Origin: Candidatus Bathyarchaeum sp.
Lineage (GTDB): Archaea; Thermoproteota; Bathyarchaeia; Bathyarchaeales; Bathyarchaeaceae
Direction: 5' to 3'
Length of the DNA stretch: 64,000 bases
Assembly: GCA_026014565.1 (NCBI GenBank)
Contig: JAOZIB010000018.1
Location: 195,042 to 259,041 of the forward strand
In this document: one piece after another, positions 13,952 to 47,654 of the stretch
Layout: every line of letters starts with the position of its first letter
Position numbering within the stretch: position 1 is the first letter of the stretch
Position numbers and translations under genes: made by a program
The notes under the pieces: model-generated
What the model saw: the letters and a program-made list of their open reading frames with translations, nothing else
Databases searched by the model: none
Told to the model about the DNA's origin: nothing

Positions 13952-14115
13952 TTTTGTTCTGTCTCTCTTATGGCTTGTCTATACTTTGCGTAGCGATCTT
14001 CGGGCGAAAATTTAGCTGGATGTGGAATGCGAACCTTTCCCCCACAAACTGGACAAACATCCTGACTTAAGGTGTATTTTTCACATTTCACACATTTTCT
14101 AAGCAACCAAACCAT
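13948..14115 (-). CDS. nop10: Ribosome biogenesis protein Nop10
   Basis: A 55-residue H/ACA ribonucleoprotein component that works with Cbf5, Gar1 and L7Ae in RNA-guided pseudouridylation. It has the zinc ribbon [13 protein letters not shown]...CPVCGGKV and the conserved tail [17 protein letters not shown]. It overlaps PAC2 by four bases. In many archaea Nop10 follows aIF2alpha; here the Nop10-PAC2 pair sits 11 kb away on the opposite strand. Confidence 0.95.
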
Positions 14116-14250
14116 CGCAACCAACACTTTGGACGTTCACCCCTACTTGTACGAACCTCCCTATTTACGTTTTCAAAAAAACAATATTAAATCTTAAATC
14201 TAAACTCCGTCTAGTATATTGATTTTGATGGTCCTCTTCAAAAAAGGAGC

Positions 14251-14457: not shown

Positions 14458-14627
14458 GCGAAAAATTAAAAAATTTCAGTTAGTAATCACGGCCTTCAAT
14501 AACGCTATTGAACAGTTTTCTAAAACTTCATTGATTCTCGATTATTGCAAAAAACTCACACAAAATTGAATAAGTTCTTTTTCCCTTCCTCTTCAAAACT
14601 AATTTTCAGTTTCTGTGGATTCATAAT

Positions 14628-14639
14628 GTTTATTACTTG
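14628..14639 (+). promoter_or_regulatory. TATA-like element before the candidate RNA
   Basis: GTTTATTACTTG lies about 25 bp before 14659, the first base of the closing stem of the candidate RNA. That is the archaeal TATA-to-start distance. No factor-B element is obvious. Confidence 0.3.
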
Positions 14640-14658: not shown

Positions 14659-14772
14659 TGCTCTCATCGCGAGCTTGATCTGCATGCGTAAATCCCGTTT
14701 ATGTATCATCTCAACGTGAGATAACCAAAATTTGAAATATCGGGGTGGCGTGGCACAAACCCGATGAGAGCA
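14659..14772 (+). ncRNA. Candidate structured RNA, new
   Basis: TGCTCTCATCG (14659-14669) pairs perfectly with CGATGAGAGCA (14762-14772), closing 92 nt. Inside are a 9-bp hairpin (ATGCGTAAA 14684-14692 with TTTATGTAT 14698-14706, loop TCCCG) and a second hairpin (ATCTCA-ACG-TGAGAT 14708-14722). The first stem contains two G-U pairs that would be C-A mismatches on the other strand, so the plus strand is the likely RNA. Loop TCCCG can pair with CGGGG (14741-14745) as a pseudoknot. The box-like ACA at 14772-14774 abuts the stem. The RNA ends four bases from the cofC stop on the opposite strand. I match it to no known class. Confidence 0.5.
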
Positions 14773-14775
14773 CAG

Positions 14776-15408
14776 TTAATCCATTTTGATTTCTGCTAAA
14801 ACTGCTTTTGTTGTTGTTTGGTTTTCAGTTTTCAGCAATATATCAAGGTCTTCAGTAGAATCAATATCCAAAGCCACACTATCCGATTCATAAATTATTG
14901 GTGAAACGCCTTTTTCTGTCGCTTCTGTTTGGTGTTTTTGGAAACTGTTTGGCCCAAATCGTGGAGAAATTATGTTCGGGGGATTTTGGAGCAACGCATT
15001 AGTTCCATTGTTATGGGAGGAAACAATAACTAAAGAAGGCGAGTCAGCACCTAGTTTGAGGATTTGGTTTATGTCATTAGCTGTTATGAGGGGGATATCT
15101 GCGGGCAGAATTAACACTGTTTTGGCGTGGTTTTTGATGCTCCATTGTGTTGCTTGTTTTAGGGAAGAGTTTAGGTTTGGACTTTTTTCTTGTAGATAAG
15201 TTACATCAAAGTCTTTGGTTAAATCTTCAATAGTTGGGTCGGAACCTACTACAACAATGTGGTTTATCATCGAAGATTTGGTTGCTGTGATTACGTCTTT
15301 AAGCATGGCAAGGGTTAGTTTTTGGCGTTGTTTTGGAGTTAGAACACCAGAAAGGCGCATTTTTGTGTTTGTTAGTTTTTTGACGGGGATTACGGCAAAG
15401 ACAGATAT
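14776..15408 (-). CDS. cofC: 2-phospho-L-lactate guanylyltransferase, possible AUA start
   Basis: F420 biosynthesis enzyme that activates 2-phospholactate (or a related phosphoacid) with GTP for CofD. The nucleotidyltransferase fold shows ILPADIPLI (metal site) and SPIIYESDSVALDIDSTEDL. The first ATG (15360) would cut off the conserved N-terminal strand. Upstream codons stay in frame and encode FAVIPVKKLTNTK, the expected nucleotide-binding start, back to a TGA at 15415. No ATG, GTG or TTG lies between. ATA at 15408, five bases after GGTGTGAG, is the best candidate. KTRL of the family is KMRL here. Confidence 0.85.
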   Translation of the reverse strand: MSVFAVIPVKKLTNTKMRLSGVLTPKQRQKLTLAMLKDVITATKSSMINHIVVVGSDPTIEDLTKDFDVTYLQEKSPNLNSSLKQATQWSIKNHAKTVLILPADIPLITANDINQILKLGADSPSLVIVSSHNNGTNALLQNPPNIISPRFGPNSFQKHQTEATEKGVSPIIYESDSVALDIDSTEDLDILLKTENQTTTKAVLAEIKMD

Positions 15409-15457
15409 TGTAACTCACACCATTAGAAGCGAGTTTAACCGATTCAATTAAATGAAT

Positions 15458-15952
15458 CTATTTGTTAAAGCCCGCAAGAAGAGTCTTTACTTCTGGTCGT
15501 AACAGTATGAATTCAATGAAGGTACTTGCAAGTAATACTTCAATGAAGGCCTTTACAATTATGAAAGCTGTTACTGTGTCTGGAACTCCATAAACGGTGC
15601 ATGCAAACCACATGTAAGGTGCATAAGGTATAATGGCAATGGCTCCACTTACGGGTGGGGGAACATTGAGTTTTTTTGCTAACAACCCAACAATGCCCGC
15701 CAGAAGAGCATTACCAAAGGGTATGAACAAATTACCGATGCTAATTGTAGACATAATCGTTCCTAATCCGCCTGTTATGGCACCAGCTATTGGACCAAAA
15801 GAAACAGCCATTAACAAAGCGGGTAAAATTGACAAGTGAAATTCAACGTTTGTTCCGGGAGCTGAAGGGAGTTGTATTACAAGAAGACCTAAAACGTTTC
15901 CAAGGGCACCCATTATGGCGATTAATGCAATTAGTTTCACGGTTATTTTCAT
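15458..15952 (-). CDS. ECF transporter S component, substrate unknown
   Basis: A membrane protein of about 164 residues with five to six hydrophobic helices, resembling the substrate-binding S components of energy-coupling-factor vitamin transporters: glycine/alanine-rich start (IALIAIMGALGNVLG), LPALLMAVSFGPIAGAITG and a late helix with FIIVKAFIEVLLAS. ATG 15952 is chosen, since GTGATT precedes it; GTG 15961 is an alternative. It lies between cofC and cofD on the same strand. No A or T component is nearby, so it must share them. Confidence 0.7.
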   Translation of the reverse strand: MKITVKLIALIAIMGALGNVLGLLVIQLPSAPGTNVEFHLSILPALLMAVSFGPIAGAITGGLGTIMSTISIGNLFIPFGNALLAGIVGLLAKKLNVPPPVSGAIAIIPYAPYMWFACTVYGVPDTVTAFIIVKAFIEVLLASTFIEFILLRPEVKTLLAGFNK

Positions 15953-16072
15953 AATAATCACATGCAGTTTTGACTGATTGAAGCACTAATAACATTAAAT
16001 AGTTATTAAATTTTTCGAAAAATATGTTAGTAAATTAATCATAATAGAATAACGAATGAACAAAACTAAGTG

Positions 16073-16993
16073 TCAAATAAAGGCCAAAACAGTTTCAGCC
16101 AAGTTGATTTTATCATCCAAGGTTTTCATAACCGTGTTCGTTGCAGCCACATCCATACCTAGAGATTCAATTCGGGCTTTTTGGTCTGCATCCACGGTGT
16201 CTATAACAAAAACGTCAAGAAAATCCCGATACAACGACGCCACACCATACGCAGAAACTTCAATCCCCGAACCGCGCATCATTTTGTCCGCCGGTCCTTT
16301 AATTGTCAATCCGCCCACAATCGGACTTATGGCAATTTTTCTTGCTTTGGTTGTTTTCACTGCATCTCTAACCCCAGGTACAGAAAGAATGGGACCAATA
16401 CTAACTAATGGATTACTGGGACACAAAATCACGGCGTCAGAACTTAAAATTGATTCAAGAACACCGTCAGCGGGTTTACTGTTTTTGATTCCTTCAAACT
16501 CTATACCAATTACTCGGTCTTGGGTGCCTCGTTTGATTAGGTATTCTTCAAAGTGTATTGTCCCCAAATCAGTTACAACCATAGTGGCAATTTGGTTATC
16601 ACTCATGGGAAGAAGCCGAACCTTCAGCCCAAGATGTTCACACAACTTTTGGGTGACCGCAGAAAGGGTGAAACCCTGATTCAAAAGGTGCGTTCGGTAG
16701 ATGTGGGTGGCAAGGTCTTTGTTTCCTAGATTGAACCAAGTTTGCAGCCCGTACTGTTTAAGCATTTCAAGGCACTCAAAGCTGTCGTCTTTGATGCCCC
16801 AGCCTGTTGTTTGGTTGACGATTCCAGCTAACGTGTACATGACGATGTCAAGGTCAGGAGAAATCTGCAAACCATAAAGTTCAATGTCGTCTCCGGTGTT
16901 ACCGATTATTGTTAGTTCCTTTTCTGGAACTATCTGAACTAAACCTTTAAGAAATTTTGAAGCCCCAACCCCACCCGCAAGTGCAGTAATCAT
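16073..16993 (-). CDS. cofD: 2-phospho-L-lactate transferase
   Basis: CofD joins the activated phosphoacid to the deazaflavin Fo to form F420-0 (or its dehydro form). The 306-residue protein starts ITALAGGVGASKFLKGL, then GNTGDDIELYGL and ISPDLDIVMYTLAG, all family signatures. ATG 16993 overlaps the stop of the nitroreductase gene by one base and is preceded by GGGGTC; the ATG at 17005 has no advantage. It is probably co-transcribed with that gene and with the ECF S gene and cofC. Confidence 0.93.
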   Translation of the reverse strand: MITALAGGVGASKFLKGLVQIVPEKELTIIGNTGDDIELYGLQISPDLDIVMYTLAGIVNQTTGWGIKDDSFECLEMLKQYGLQTWFNLGNKDLATHIYRTHLLNQGFTLSAVTQKLCEHLGLKVRLLPMSDNQIATMVVTDLGTIHFEEYLIKRGTQDRVIGIEFEGIKNSKPADGVLESILSSDAVILCPSNPLVSIGPILSVPGVRDAVKTTKARKIAISPIVGGLTIKGPADKMMRGSGIEVSAYGVASLYRDFLDVFVIDTVDADQKARIESLGMDVAATNTVMKTLDDKINLAETVLAFI

Positions 16994-17610
16994 TATTGAC
17001 CCCACCGATTCTGATACAATATATTGTCTAAAGGCTTTCTGGGCGGAGCCTTTGGAACCTCATCAGGATACCCCACGGTTATCAGCGCCTGCGGATAAAC
17101 ATTTTCAGGAATTCCCAACACGTTTCTGACTGTTTCAGGACAAAACAACGGCGCACAAAACCAACAAGCAGCCAAACCCTCACCATGAACTGCCAAAAGC
17201 AGGTTCTGAGTCGCAGCCCCCACGCTCTGAGTGCCCATCACGTATTCTGCTTGGCGCCTTTTTTTGTCGGGATAACTGTCCATTTCTTTCATCCCAAGGC
17301 ACACAACAACCAGAACTGGAGGACCACTAAACCGTTTAACAGAATCAGCAACAAAATTTTCCAAAAACACAGAGTCAGTTCCATCTTTTTGCAAATCTTC
17401 TTTCCACTTCATCGCCATTGCCTTTGCCAACTGTTGTTTTGTGTCAAAATCATCTATTACAACAAAACGCCAAGGCTGAGAATTATGCGCAGAAGGCGCC
17501 CATCGGGTAACATCAAAAACTCGTTGAATAACATCACTTGGAACTTTTTTTGACGAAAACTTGCGGACACTGCGTCGGTTCTTGATAAGGGTAAAAAGAT
17601 TTGAAGCCAC
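16993..17610 (-). CDS. Nitroreductase-family flavoprotein
   Basis: FMN-binding oxidoreductase of 205 residues with the family N-terminus (IKNRRSVRKF), RWAPSAHNSQPWRFVV (FMN site) and GEGLAACWF. It overlaps cofD by one base. Some nitroreductase domains act in F420 metabolism (the C-terminal domain of mycobacterial FbiB reduces dehydro-F420), so the placement suggests such a role. That is inference. No cofE is seen in the window. Confidence 0.85.
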   Translation of the reverse strand: MASNLFTLIKNRRSVRKFSSKKVPSDVIQRVFDVTRWAPSAHNSQPWRFVVIDDFDTKQQLAKAMAMKWKEDLQKDGTDSVFLENFVADSVKRFSGPPVLVVVCLGMKEMDSYPDKKRRQAEYVMGTQSVGAATQNLLLAVHGEGLAACWFCAPLFCPETVRNVLGIPENVYPQALITVGYPDEVPKAPPRKPLDNILYQNRWGQ

Positions 17611-17667
17611 GTTTATTCAACCTATTTTTAGTTAATTTGCTAGATAATACAGTTATGAAAACTGCTA

Positions 17668-18546
17668 TTATTTTGCTACTGCGAGTACAAGACAAACATA
17701 ACCGCTGATTCTTCCAAAAAGTTTGCCGTCGTCGGTAGTAAGATATTTTTTCTCTAATTCTTTGGCGGTGTAATGGGAAACTGTGTCAAAGCCTCTTTCA
17801 CGTAAAAACTGCTCAATTTTTCCTTCTTCAATCCCAAATTGATAAGGCTCATCTGATTCTGCGGTTGCTTTTAGGATTTCTTTAGCACCATAACAGTCAC
17901 AGGTTCCATCCACTACAGCTTTGTAAATGTAATTAAAGGCAACAGTGGTGCCAGACGTTTTATGGATAAAACTCAGGGTGGAATCTACAGCCTCAGGGGT
18001 TAAGTATTCTGTGACGCCTTCCCAAATAAACAAAGTTCTTTTGTTTACATCAAATCCTGCTTCCGCCAAAACTTCACCAAGATTCTGGGTGTTAAAATTG
18101 ATAGAAACATAATGTAACTGTTCAGGAACAGAAATGTCGGATTCTTTCAGAAACCTTTGCTTCATTTTCTGGGTTGGGGAACTGTCTAACTCAAAAATCT
18201 GGGTTTGTTTGATGCAGTCTTTAAAACGGTAAGGTCGGGTGTCGTATCCTGCACCAAGAAATACAATCTGAGGCAAATTCTCCAAAAGAGCTTGCTCAAA
18301 AATTGTGTCAAAAAATTTTGTTCGAGCAATAATGTATTCGTAGACTTGTGGAGCTTTTCGTTTTGCTATTGGTAACGTTATTTTGTGCAGTTTCAGAATA
18401 AAACTGTCAATACCTTTCATGTAAATTTTAGCTAAATGGTCAGGACCACGGATTTGCTCATTTTTTTCTTTATTTGCACACGCCCGAAAGAAACAAACAA
18501 TCGCAGCAGTTGAAGAGGGCTTTTCGTCTATAGACTGTTTGCTCAT
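17668..18546 (-). CDS. SAM-dependent methyltransferase, LCMT/PPM1-like family
   Basis: Class I methyltransferase of 292 residues in the leucine carboxyl methyltransferase-like family. SAM-binding motif I is IVFLGAGYDTRPYRF at about residue 92, with IFELDSSPTQ after it and FIWEGVTEYLTPEAV further on. These match secondary-metabolism enzymes that O-methylate small molecules or polyketides. It lies 57 bp upstream of the nitroreductase gene on the same strand. The substrate is unknown. Confidence 0.85.
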   Translation of the reverse strand: MSKQSIDEKPSSTAAIVCFFRACANKEKNEQIRGPDHLAKIYMKGIDSFILKLHKITLPIAKRKAPQVYEYIIARTKFFDTIFEQALLENLPQIVFLGAGYDTRPYRFKDCIKQTQIFELDSSPTQKMKQRFLKESDISVPEQLHYVSINFNTQNLGEVLAEAGFDVNKRTLFIWEGVTEYLTPEAVDSTLSFIHKTSGTTVAFNYIYKAVVDGTCDCYGAKEILKATAESDEPYQFGIEEGKIEQFLRERGFDTVSHYTAKELEKKYLTTDDGKLFGRISGYVCLVLAVAK

Positions 18547-18728
18547 GACTTTCCACCCACCAAATCAAAGATTTTTAGGTACTACTTGTAAGGAATGTTA
18601 GTAAATTAAAGTTAGTTTAACCAAACAGATAACAACAAAACTGGAACCAAAGTCGAAACATCTCTTTTCTGAAAGAGGAATTACGAAAATTGTAGTTGTC
18701 TAAATGAAAATGGGCATCTTTGGATTTG

Positions 18729-18757
18729 TGTTCGGGCACCCGAACAGAACTGTTCGG
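18729..18757. promoter_or_regulatory. Triple TGTTCGG operator before the secreted-protein gene
   Basis: TGTTCGGG-CA-CCCGAACA (18729-18746) is a perfect inverted repeat. The same unit follows again as TGTTCGG (18751-18757), making a second inverted repeat with the middle copy (spacer GAAC). Three copies in alternating orientation within 29 bp, 50 bp before the gene, suggest cooperative binding by a dimeric regulator, possibly the winged-helix protein encoded at 20127. Confidence 0.55.
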
Positions 18758-18806
18758 TACATAGAGTTATGAGTGCTTTTACGACCAGATAATTTGAGGT
18801 GTTAAA

Positions 18807-20123
18807 ATGAAACCCAGCTTAAAATTAACTATCATTGCCCTTTTTGCATTGGGTTTAGGCGTTGCGTATGCGTCGCCTATGCTCCTAACTCCAATGAACG
18901 TACAACCTTTTCCTATAGTACCAGAAGGAGATAAAGCAGAATTCGGTGTCGACATAGTCTACGCCAGCTTCAACCCAGTCGAATGGCAATCCAAAGTACC
19001 TGAATACGCCGAAAATGGATCTATCGTATACAACACGTACCCCGCCGTCAACGTTACATACAACGTCGTCCTAAATGTCACCAACCTTTCAAACCAACCA
19101 GCTACAATCTACGAATTAGCGTTTACAGCCGCTGAAGAACTCTCTGTGAAGCAGTCCATCCTCGGAGGAACATTATACGACCGCGGCCCAACCAAAACGC
19201 CAGTAGATGAAAGTAGACGAGCTTCACATTTCGGCGGCATCGTTGATGGAGTTTATCTTGATGGCGAATGGGTGAACATCACTTGGATTCCCGAAGGTCG
19301 TTGGATAGGCAACACATGGCAGTCACTGCCCTACCCACAATGCTTGATTGCTCTCACGCAAGTCTATTGTAACGAATATGAAGGATTCTTTCCAGGGCCT
19401 CTCACCCCAGACGACGTAGCTAACTTCAGTGCGGATCATTCCCTAAACCGCGCAATTCCTGATCTGCCCACTAATGCAAGCGAAATAGGCATCTGGTTTG
19501 AAGGTGTACCAATCGCCGAATACTATAACTCAACTTGCAATCCCGTGATAACAGTGATGTACATTAACGGGACATGGGTTGACGTAACAGGCAGAGTAAC
19601 AGTAGACAAAACTCAGCCATTCATGGTGGCATCAGGTCTGCTACTAAATGATGTACTAACAGTCGGAGCACAACCTTACGAGAACATATACAACCCAAAC
19701 GATGGACCAATAACAGCGTTGCCCCACTGGAGCGCAGGAATCGGAGTCGGACGAACGTACAGCTGGCTTCCATTCAGCAGTTCTGGCCCCGAAACATTCA
19801 ACAACACATGGGCACCAGGCGAATCAAGGCTTATCATGTTCAACAACACACAGATGTTCATTATCTCGCTAGGAACCAGTGGCGAAGGAATAGATGCGTT
19901 ACAAACAGGAACTATCAAACTGTATGCTTCAGTTTCAAACTACATCGACAACTGGCCCGTTAACGGAACCTACTACAACACTGCCTCAACAACCGTCCAA
20001 GTCGCCCAACTGCAACTGGAGAGGACTTCAAACGGATACACATACAACGCCATCTTAGCCGACAACCAAACGTTCCAACAGGGAAATTCACGCATTGAGG
20101 TCGTCATCATTACCGAGGGTTGA
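18807..20123 (+). CDS. Secreted protein, function unknown
   Basis: A 438-residue protein with a clear signal peptide (residues 1-22, LTIIALFALGLGVAYAS) and no C-terminal membrane anchor. The rest is rich in Asn, Thr, Tyr and Trp with many N-glycosylation sequons (NVT, NLS, NGT, NNT), typical of archaeal surface proteins; AglB could modify it. GAGGTG lies before the ATG. Codon use favours C-ending codons more than the neighbours, perhaps from high expression or transfer. It is followed by a regulator gene after 3 bp. I do not recognise a domain. Confidence 0.7.
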   Translation: MKPSLKLTIIALFALGLGVAYASPMLLTPMNVQPFPIVPEGDKAEFGVDIVYASFNPVEWQSKVPEYAENGSIVYNTYPAVNVTYNVVLNVTNLSNQPATIYELAFTAAEELSVKQSILGGTLYDRGPTKTPVDESRRASHFGGIVDGVYLDGEWVNITWIPEGRWIGNTWQSLPYPQCLIALTQVYCNEYEGFFPGPLTPDDVANFSADHSLNRAIPDLPTNASEIGIWFEGVPIAEYYNSTCNPVITVMYINGTWVDVTGRVTVDKTQPFMVASGLLLNDVLTVGAQPYENIYNPNDGPITALPHWSAGIGVGRTYSWLPFSSSGPETFNNTWAPGESRLIMFNNTQMFIISLGTSGEGIDALQTGTIKLYASVSNYIDNWPVNGTYYNTASTTVQVAQLQLERTSNGYTYNAILADNQTFQQGNSRIEVVIITEG

Positions 20124-20126
20124 GCC

Positions 20127-20600
20127 GTGACCAACAATAACGCAGAAGAGCTCGACGGCACCACCTTAAGCATCTACGCCTACGTCGTCAAAGAAGGCAA
20201 GCCTGTCGGACCACGTGAAGTCAGACGTGCCAACAACCTTACCAGTCCAAGCATCGCTCATTGGCATCTGCAGAAACTAGAAGCTCTAGGGTTGCTTACA
20301 AAAAACAAACTTGGAGAATACATCGTCAAGGAAAAAGTAAGCGTGAGCGGACATCTATGGATTGGTCGAACGTTGGTGCCTCGGCTCGTTTTTTACTCTT
20401 TCTTTTTTATTGGCATTTTGGCGGTGGAAATATGTCTAATCGCTTTACCCTTACTTATGCAAGGTGTTGCCCCTGCAGTGTACCTTTACTACTTGCTTTC
20501 ACCAACCGCTATAGCAACTATTCTGTTTTTGGCAGAAGGGCTGTGGTTACGCAAAAAAATCCTCTCACCAGCCACAAAGAAACACTCCGAAAGCAACTGA
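20127..20600 (+). CDS. Winged-helix protein with two membrane helices
   Basis: A 157-residue protein. Residues about 10-70 form a winged helix-turn-helix (VGPREVRRANNLTSPSIAHWHLQKLEALGL), followed by two hydrophobic helices (about 88-110 and 118-138). The layout is of a membrane-tethered transcription regulator. It starts at GTG 20127, three bases after the stop of the secreted-protein gene, so the pair forms one operon. Such a protein might sense the envelope state and act on the operator at 18729; this is inference. Confidence 0.7.
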   Translation: MTNNNAEELDGTTLSIYAYVVKEGKPVGPREVRRANNLTSPSIAHWHLQKLEALGLLTKNKLGEYIVKEKVSVSGHLWIGRTLVPRLVFYSFFFIGILAVEICLIALPLLMQGVAPAVYLYYLLSPTAIATILFLAEGLWLRKKILSPATKKHSESN

Positions 20601-20931
20601 AGTAGCCCCTCTTTTTGGGAAGGCTTCAGTTATCAGACTCTTTATCTGAGGCATTAGAAAAGTGCGAAGATGGAACGACATTTAATTCAATCTTCTAGCA
20701 CATTTTTTTGTATTGGCGAATTTTAAAAAAGGATTTGTTTCCAAGTTCCTGAACATATTCGCAATCCTAATAGAGGGTCATTGTTGAAAACAGCGTTTTT
20801 TCCTAAAAAACTGCACAACAAAAAAGACTGGAGCCCAGTTAATTTGATGTAACAGAAACTCCTGGGGTCGAAACCTTCATAAACCCTGCTCTCGATAAAC
20901 TCAACACTTGAAAAAATTAGGGTGAGGCATA
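20601..20931 (+). other. Intergenic region before L7Ae
   Basis: No gene is seen. The region holds a weak hairpin (TCAGA...TCTGA near 20634-20650), copy A of the dispersed repeat (20747-20803), a TATA-like CTTCATAAAC at 20875-20884 and the ribosome binding site GGTGAGG at 20921-20927 for L7Ae. Confidence 0.5.
20747..20803 (-). repeat. Dispersed intergenic element, copy A
   Basis: On the minus strand it reads GGAAAAAACGCT, GTTTTCAAC, then CTCTATTAGGATTG and AATATGTTCAGG. Unlike the other five copies it does not follow a stop codon in sense: it is reversed relative to both flanking plus-strand genes. Confidence 0.65.
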
Positions 20932-21315
20932 ATGTCAAAACCATTTTATGCAAAATTTGAAGTCCCCGATGAGGTGGCAGATGCGGCCTATGAAGCCCTG
21001 CAAATAGCCAGCCGAACCGGGTCAGTTAGAATAGGAACAAACGAAACAACCAAATCAGTAGAAAGAGGTCAAGCAAAACTCGTAGTTATTGCAAACGATG
21101 TAGACCCACCGGAAGTAGTGGCACATCTTCCACTTCTATGTGAAGAACGTAAAATCCCTTACGTGTTCGTCCCCAGTAGAGAAAAACTTGGTGTTTCCTC
21201 CGGGATCGAAGTCTCCTCCGCAGCAGTAGCAATTGCTAATGTTGGTGAGGCAGTCGGTTTGGTTAAGGAAATTTCAACCAGACTAGAGGAACTTAAACAG
21301 AAGGGCGCTGAATGA
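20932..21315 (+). CDS. rpl7ae: 50S ribosomal protein L7Ae
   Basis: Kink-turn RNA-binding protein of 127 residues. It is part of the large subunit and of C/D and H/ACA guide complexes and archaeal RNase P. The family motif [20 protein letters not shown] is present, followed by [17 protein letters not shown]. It starts the L7Ae-S28e-L24e cluster with strong ribosome binding site GGTGAGG. It could bind the candidate RNA at 14659 if that carries a kink-turn. Confidence 0.97.
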
Positions 21316-46331: not shown

Positions 46332-47654
46332 TTGGGTTTTCGAGATTTTATTGACCTCCTAGAAAAAGAAGGAAAACTAACCAGAATTAAAAAAGAGGTT
46401 TCAACAGACCTGGAACTAGCAGGAATCCTTGAAGCTTTAGGGGAAAAGCCCTGCTTTTTTGAAAAAATCAAAGAATCAAGCATGCCCGTGGTTGGAGGTT
46501 TGGTTTCTTCTAAAGAATTAGTCGCCAAAGCCCTGAACATGAGCGTACACCAGATTTTGCCTAAATTATCTGGAGTTTTAGAAAATCCTGTCCCACCACC
46601 TGTAGTAAAAATGGGAAAATGCCAAGAAGTTGTGGAAAAAAATGTTGACCTAAACACATTACCCATAATGCGTTATACCGAAAAAGATGGCGGAAAATAC
46701 ATTGCTTCTGCTGTTTCAATAATTAAAGACCCTGAACTAGGCAGAAACATGTGTTTTCACCGTTTGATGCTGATTGGAAAAAACAAGTTTGTTGCTAGAT
46801 TCGTAGAAAACCGAGGAACAGACACCGCCCTCAAAAAAGCTGGAGGCGAGTTAGAAATTGCCATGTGTATCGGCAACGCTACTTCTGTTCTTTTGTCTGC
46901 GGCTACTTCGTTGCCTCCAGGTGTTGATGAGCTAGGGATGGCAAATGCTTTGGAACGAACAGAACTTATAAAATGTAAAACCGTTGACCTTGAAGTTCCT
47001 AACGATTGTGAAATCGTTCTTGAAGGGCGAATAACCAACGAAACCGTTTCAGAAGGTCCTTTTCTTGATTTGACTGGAATTCCTGATCGTGTTAGGCAAC
47101 AGCCAGTTATTGAAGTCAAATGCATCACGCATAGAAAAGATCCAATTTACCAAACAGTTCTTGCTGGTAGAAACGAACACAAAGTTTTGATGGGTATGCC
47201 TAAAGAGCCCACTATCTTTAATGAGGCAAACAAGGTCTGCAAGTGTAACGACGTTTACATTACTACTGGGGGTTGTAGTTGGCTTCATGCAGTTTTGCAG
47301 ATAACTAAACAAAACCCAGATGATGGAAAAAAAGCCATAGAGGCTGCCTTTAAGGGTCACAAATCCTTGAAGCATTGTGTTGTCGTGGATGACGACATCA
47401 ACATTTACGACAGTGATGATGTAGAATGGGCTCTTGCAACTAGGTTCCAAGCTGACAAAGCCGCAGTTATTATGCCCAATCAGCCGGGGTCTTCTTTGGA
47501 CCCTTCAGGAGATTTGTCTGAAGGCAAAAAAGCCCGAACCTGCAAAATGGGGTTGGATGCTACCATTCCTTTGACTGGGACTGGTAAAGGGTTTGGTAAA
47601 ATAAATTACCGAAAAGTTGACTTGAAAAAGTTCGTGGATTCATCATGTACTTGA
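46332..47654 (+). CDS. UbiD-family anhydromevalonate phosphate decarboxylase
   Basis: Prenylated-FMN-dependent decarboxylase, 440 residues, with ENRGTDTALKKAGGELE, VLAGRNEHKVLMGMPKE and TRFQADKAAVIM. In the archaeal modified mevalonate pathway a UbiD relative decarboxylates trans-anhydromevalonate 5-phosphate to isopentenyl phosphate. The gene order with the AcnX-type dehydratase and IPK strongly supports that assignment over ubiquinone synthesis. It starts at TTG 46332. It overlaps the next gene by 10 bp. No UbiX (flavin prenyltransferase) is in the window. Confidence 0.9.
   Translation: MGFRDFIDLLEKEGKLTRIKKEVSTDLELAGILEALGEKPCFFEKIKESSMPVVGGLVSSKELVAKALNMSVHQILPKLSGVLENPVPPPVVKMGKCQEVVEKNVDLNTLPIMRYTEKDGGKYIASAVSIIKDPELGRNMCFHRLMLIGKNKFVARFVENRGTDTALKKAGGELEIAMCIGNATSVLLSAATSLPPGVDELGMANALERTELIKCKTVDLEVPNDCEIVLEGRITNETVSEGPFLDLTGIPDRVRQQPVIEVKCITHRKDPIYQTVLAGRNEHKVLMGMPKEPTIFNEANKVCKCNDVYITTGGCSWLHAVLQITKQNPDDGKKAIEAAFKGHKSLKHCVVVDDDINIYDSDDVEWALATRFQADKAAVIMPNQPGSSLDPSGDLSEGKKARTCKMGLDATIPLTGTGKGFGKINYRKVDLKKFVDSSCT

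Follow-up and report, generated by a model that had tools for sequence, protein, structure and literature searches.

A covarying, rod-shaped RNA of Bathyarchaeia as a new RNA family and candidate stand-alone gene

Small structured RNAs with features resembling those of the RNA described here are known from several systems. Archaeal H/ACA guide RNAs are small, stand-alone molecules that combine a hairpin, an internal loop, and a closing stem. Y RNAs, which associate with Ro60, are rods of ~100 nt with their ends paired in a long stem, and they are dispensable and patchily distributed. The msr-msd RNAs of retrons and the omega-RNAs of TnpB are structured RNAs of mobile or defense systems, and retron RNAs also have a long closing stem. 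Orphan stand-alone structured RNAs (e.g., PMC2864571) have been discovered by comparative genomics through intergenic covariation, with their function unassigned.

We analyzed a locus sharing features with each of these classes in a 64,000-nt stretch of contig JAOZIB010000018.1 from Candidatus Bathyarchaeum sp. (this whole stretch is referred to as the window). The RNA occupies positions 14659 to 14772 on the plus strand and belongs to a family with lengths of 109 to 133 nt (median, 119 nt). Bathyarchaeia are abundant sediment archaea, and our literature searches turned up only incidental mentions of their structured RNAs. Covariance-model searches with Rfam 15 (4227 families) detected only a tRNA elsewhere in the window at the gathering threshold, one sub-threshold chance match to mir-7 beside the RNA when the locus was searched at E values up to 10, and nothing at six homologous loci at E values up to 1. 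The initial annotation had proposed a plus-strand structured RNA of an unlisted class, and the homologues, their covariation, and the lack of any Rfam family match for the RNA bear this out. The RNA is a new RNA family, with novelty claimed at the level of the family and the working principle not judged from sequence. Elsewhere in the window, an ARAGORN call of tRNA-Ser at 46424 to 46519 had no Rfam tRNA match at the gathering threshold and is probably a false positive.

A rod of five nested helices

Analysis of the aligned copies showed that the family folds as a rod in which conserved internal loops interrupt five nested helices, P1 to P5 (all coordinates are on the plus strand). The closing stem P1 is a perfect 11-bp stem in the window copy, pairing 14659 to 14669 with 14762 to 14772, and 10 of its 11 pairs underwent changes on both sides in the covariation analysis. 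P2 (5 bp, 14673 to 14677 with 14756 to 14760, placed by the covariation analysis and pair coordinates) has both-sided changes in four of five pairs, and its C14674-A14759 position is unpaired in the window copy. The internal loop J2/3 (14678 to 14682), which lies opposite GUA or GCA, is kept within clades and reads CUCUG in the family and AUCUG in the window copy. P3 (14683 to 14687 with 14748 to 14752) is of the CACGC/GCGUG type and is paired in 98.3% of cells, with CACGU/ACGUG, CAUGC/GCAUG, and CACAC/GUGUG as variants among copies.

The alignments showed the internal loop J3/4, RUAAA(U), at 14688 to 14693 to be near-invariant. P4 joins CCC at 14694 to 14696 to GGG at 14743 to 14745 with 94.3% of cells paired, and because it is nearly invariant, it has little covariation of its own. 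The complementarity of UCCCG (14693 to 14697) and CGGGG (14741 to 14745) that the initial annotation read as a possible pseudoknot is real, but it fits as the nested P4 instead. P5 is a 6-bp hairpin, AUCUCA-ACG-UGAGAU, at 14708 to 14722 with both-sided changes in five of six pairs, and 3' of it lies the conserved unpaired segment CCAAAA at 14725 to 14730. Compensatory changes thus support both the 11-bp closing stem and the 6-bp hairpin first noticed in the window copy.

The window copy folded with a z score of −3.5 relative to dinucleotide-shuffled sequence, with 1 of 200 shuffles equally good. Across 58 distinct copies, 91.6% of cells at the 30 proposed pairs were standard pairs, compared with 37 to 50% in slid-partner controls. 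In the same copies, 23 of the 30 pairs varied on both sides, double-sided changes numbered 225 where shuffles predicted 78, and covariation scored 0.37 versus 0.19, with 0 of 500 shuffles as high; an earlier set of 44 copies gave the same covariation outcome. Compensatory pairs were present in P1, P2, P3, and P5, and the strongest covarying columns in an unguided column-pair scan were the proposed pairs. The alignments were built by covariance models carrying the proposed structure and lean towards that structure; the compensations, such as those in P1 and P5, were nevertheless already present in our first alignments, made structure-free with MAFFT. Outside the helices, we detected only weak, clade-linked signals of tertiary covariation. 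Because of the folding z score, the covarying homologues in dozens of genomes, and the absence of an Rfam match, the structured RNA is confirmed to exceed chance.

Distribution and genomic surroundings

Among 101 relatives searched first at the DNA level, clear copies turned up within the genus and the family as well as in two further families of the order, and several genomes had more than one. With nine copies as its seed, a covariance model then detected the RNA in 34 of 151 relatives. A second model detected 65 copies, distributed over 40 of 257 genomes of Bathyarchaeia at one to eight per genome, with the maximum in G217. The window copy matched at 116.9 bits (E = 2e-31) with a model whose seed included it. 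Named contigs with the RNA include CP070828, CP070659, JAOZHB, and LFWW01000046 (MCG-6 AD8-1). Alignment of homologous loci, a check put forward in the initial annotation, yielded conserved homologues with covariation.

No match occurred outside the order of the window genome in a sample of 398 genomes of the phylum, and 39 good-quality non-carrier relatives gave no hit with a third, broader covariance model run under relaxed filters. Because this sensitive search left those genomes empty, the patchiness of the family is real, and a family found in 40 of 257 genomes is dispensable to its hosts, which keeps some room for an unseen cis or mobile role. When genomes were scanned for a loose version of the motif, most matches were chance ones in bacteria, accompanied by true Bathyarchaeota ones. 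Viral contigs and plasmid collections contained no match, and phages yielded nothing credible (four partial 26-nt matches at E = 0.5).

Two genomes illustrate how copies differ. G006 contains two decayed copies ~9 kb apart, L219:4039-4158 (minus strand) and L219:12856-12975 (plus strand), in which P1 and P3 pairs are broken in a pseudogene-like manner. G217 contains eight divergent copies (L248 to L255), several with a CATAA-like promoter element.

In the window, the 114-nt locus sits between the minus-strand Nop10 and PAC2 genes and convergent cofC, a gene for F420 biosynthesis according to Pfam, whose stop codon lies 4 nt beyond the closing stem. The Nop10 gene (13952 to 14126, minus strand) lies beside PAC2 on the strand opposite the RNA. 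The locus is partly syntenic within genus g1. The gene directly 3' of the RNA in G005 and G006 is found on the same contig ~6 kb downstream in the window genome, and a gene block (14776 to 20932) that includes cofC intervenes between it and the RNA. We did not find cofC in five relatives of the genus, and gene blocks are inserted beside the RNA in some genomes.

Promoter, flanks, and alternative readings

A TATA-box-like element, TTCATAATGTTTATTA, lies at 14620 to 14635, −39 to −24 from P1 on the plus strand, and as the initial annotation had anticipated from the window copy, such an element is conserved across copies and enriched over control windows. Of 57 copies, 22 had TTCATAA between −50 and −25 relative to P1, whereas the count was 0 to 1 of ~54 for every one of 12 control windows, and the extended element TTCATAANNTTTATTA has a single exact match in its own genome, at the RNA locus. 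The family has a pyrimidine-rich (C/T) tail after P1, which is weak in the window copy (14773 to 14790, plus strand); 35 of 57 copies had a C/T run of at least 5 nt no more than 10 nt from P1, versus 13% of control windows. Among ORFs of 80 or more amino acids, the closest one downstream shared the strand of the RNA in 32 copies and lay on the other strand in 24, and the closest one upstream was split 28 to 26. No neighbor gene families were shared between lineages, with strand close to random, and there was no conserved reading frame, each frame being open in at most 18 of 58 copies. The promoter element, the C/T tail, the non-conserved neighbors and strands, and the lack of a consistent ORF together point to an independent plus-strand RNA gene. 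These sequence features indicate a stand-alone small RNA gene rather than a riboswitch or untranslated region, one that would be transcribed as a discrete RNA. The plus-strand direction given in the initial annotation therefore stands, but its argument from wobble pairs in a local hairpin does not; G-U evidence for the strand is modest (83 GU versus 46 AC cells), and folding energies are similar for both strands.

Several other readings of the locus were weighed. The RNA could be a cis-regulatory element of the riboswitch or ribosomal-leader type that controls the next gene, since its conserved internal loops resemble a ligand pocket and four copies in genus g29 precede a HAD hydrolase gene on the same strand by ~110 nt. 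We regard this as quite unlikely given that 24 of 56 copies have an oppositely oriented downstream gene, that neighbors are unrelated between lineages, and that the 3' end of the RNA in the window is 4 nt from the end of convergent cofC. The patchy distribution, the one to eight copies per genome, the decayed G006 copies, and the adjacent gene-block insertions would instead suit an RNA that is part of, or left over from, a mobile or defense element, such as a retron, a TnpB omega-RNA, or a MITE-like repeat with P1 as its termini. This reading is also unlikely: only 2 of 22 carriers have a reverse transcriptase (RVT_1) hit, TnpB occurs in 1 of 22 carriers versus 4 of 22 non-carriers, divergent copies retain compensatory pairs and the promoter outside P1, synteny of the locus is partly kept within the genus, and viral and plasmid sequences are empty. 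An atypical modification guide of the H/ACA or C/D type, acting with L7Ae and Nop10, would be expected to be archaeal, structured, and stand-alone like this RNA, and in the window copy an ACA overlaps the end of P1 with Nop10 nearby. An ACA directly follows the basal stem in only 3 of 57 copies, however, so the H/ACA hint that the initial annotation drew from it does not extend to the family, and the proximity of Nop10 is due to the local gene order in the window genome only. Box C (RUGAUGA) was found in 0 of 58 copies and a D-type CTGA in 6 of 58, inspection of the alignments by eye recognized no kink-turn or K-loop signature with conserved tandem GA, and the unpaired strands hardly vary among the eight G217 paralogues. 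Together with the missing Rfam match, these observations make a guide very improbable.

A further reading concerns the fold itself. The window copy can form a 9-bp hairpin with two G-U pairs, AUGCGUAAA-UCCCG-UUUAUGUAU, at 14684 to 14706, and the AUGCGUAAA/UUUAUGUAU pairing might alternate with P3 to make the RNA a conformational switch. Similar local hairpins are possible in G060, G066a, G075, G082, G097a, family f21, and G217, and the pairing was better than that with shuffled 3' segments (mean, −2.37 versus −0.79 kcal/mol; 0 of 200). Segments swapped between sequences nevertheless paired almost equally well (−2.20, with 31 of 200 swaps as low), and thus there is no covariation support for the hairpin, which is missing from many copies and overlaps P3, a covarying helix almost always paired. 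A switch consequently appears improbable. Although the initial annotation treated this wobble hairpin as part of the structure, it conflicts with P3 as a family feature and is a possible alternative fold outside the conserved structure.

Proposed role and relation to known RNAs

The reading that we favor, with somewhat better than even confidence, is that the locus is a stand-alone gene whose product, a small structured noncoding RNA of Bathyarchaeia, would act in trans by binding a partner. The copies are intergenic, are tied to no neighboring gene, and are duplicated and sometimes decayed. The RNA would be transcribed as a discrete molecule of ~115 to 130 nt, with P1 and P2 serving as a clamp that joins its ends. 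The conserved core, comprising the RUAAA loop, CCC/GGG, and the CCAAAA strand by P5, may bind a protein or, less probably, a small ligand, so that the RNA might serve within a ribonucleoprotein as its scaffold or decoy. In the eight G217 paralogues, the core and the P4-P5 segment are nearly constant and the unpaired strands barely diversify, a pattern more in keeping with one common partner than with separate targets. More tentatively, and with clearly less than even confidence, the RNA might belong to an undescribed archaeal ribonucleoprotein confined, in the genomes sampled, to Bathyarchaeia, in which an independently transcribed rod RNA would scaffold or regulate a dedicated complex as a functional counterpart of 6S or Y RNA. 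A covariation-supported family with its own promoter, at most eight copies per genome, and no Rfam relative gives concrete new material to work with: metatranscriptomes can be searched with its covariance model, and an in vitro transcript can be used as bait for the partner.

We also considered specific candidates. An Ssb-like OB-fold protein encoded near the RNA in several lineages was set aside as a chance association because it is nearly universal in the class (246 of 257 genomes). Identity with a Y RNA was not supported, given the absence of Ro60 co-occurrence: TROVE was found in 1 of 257 genomes (G247), a non-carrier. Identity with a retron RNA or TnpB omega-RNA was rejected on the inconsistent presence of reverse transcriptase or TnpB in carriers and the absence of an adjacent effector gene.

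Relative to known systems, the RNA differs from H/ACA guide RNAs in its five-helix rod without a conserved ACA box or recognized kink-turn signature, and from guide RNAs, which diversify, in unpaired strands that have not diversified between paralogues. It resembles Y RNA in form and distribution, but no carrier has TROVE/Ro60 and no Rfam family matches. It shares a long closing stem with retron RNAs, whereas neither a consistent reverse transcriptase or TnpB nor an effector gene accompanies it. Unlike orphan RNAs of the PMC2864571 type, it matches none of the 4227 Rfam 15 families, and it is like them a stand-alone structured RNA brought to light by covariation in intergenic sequence.
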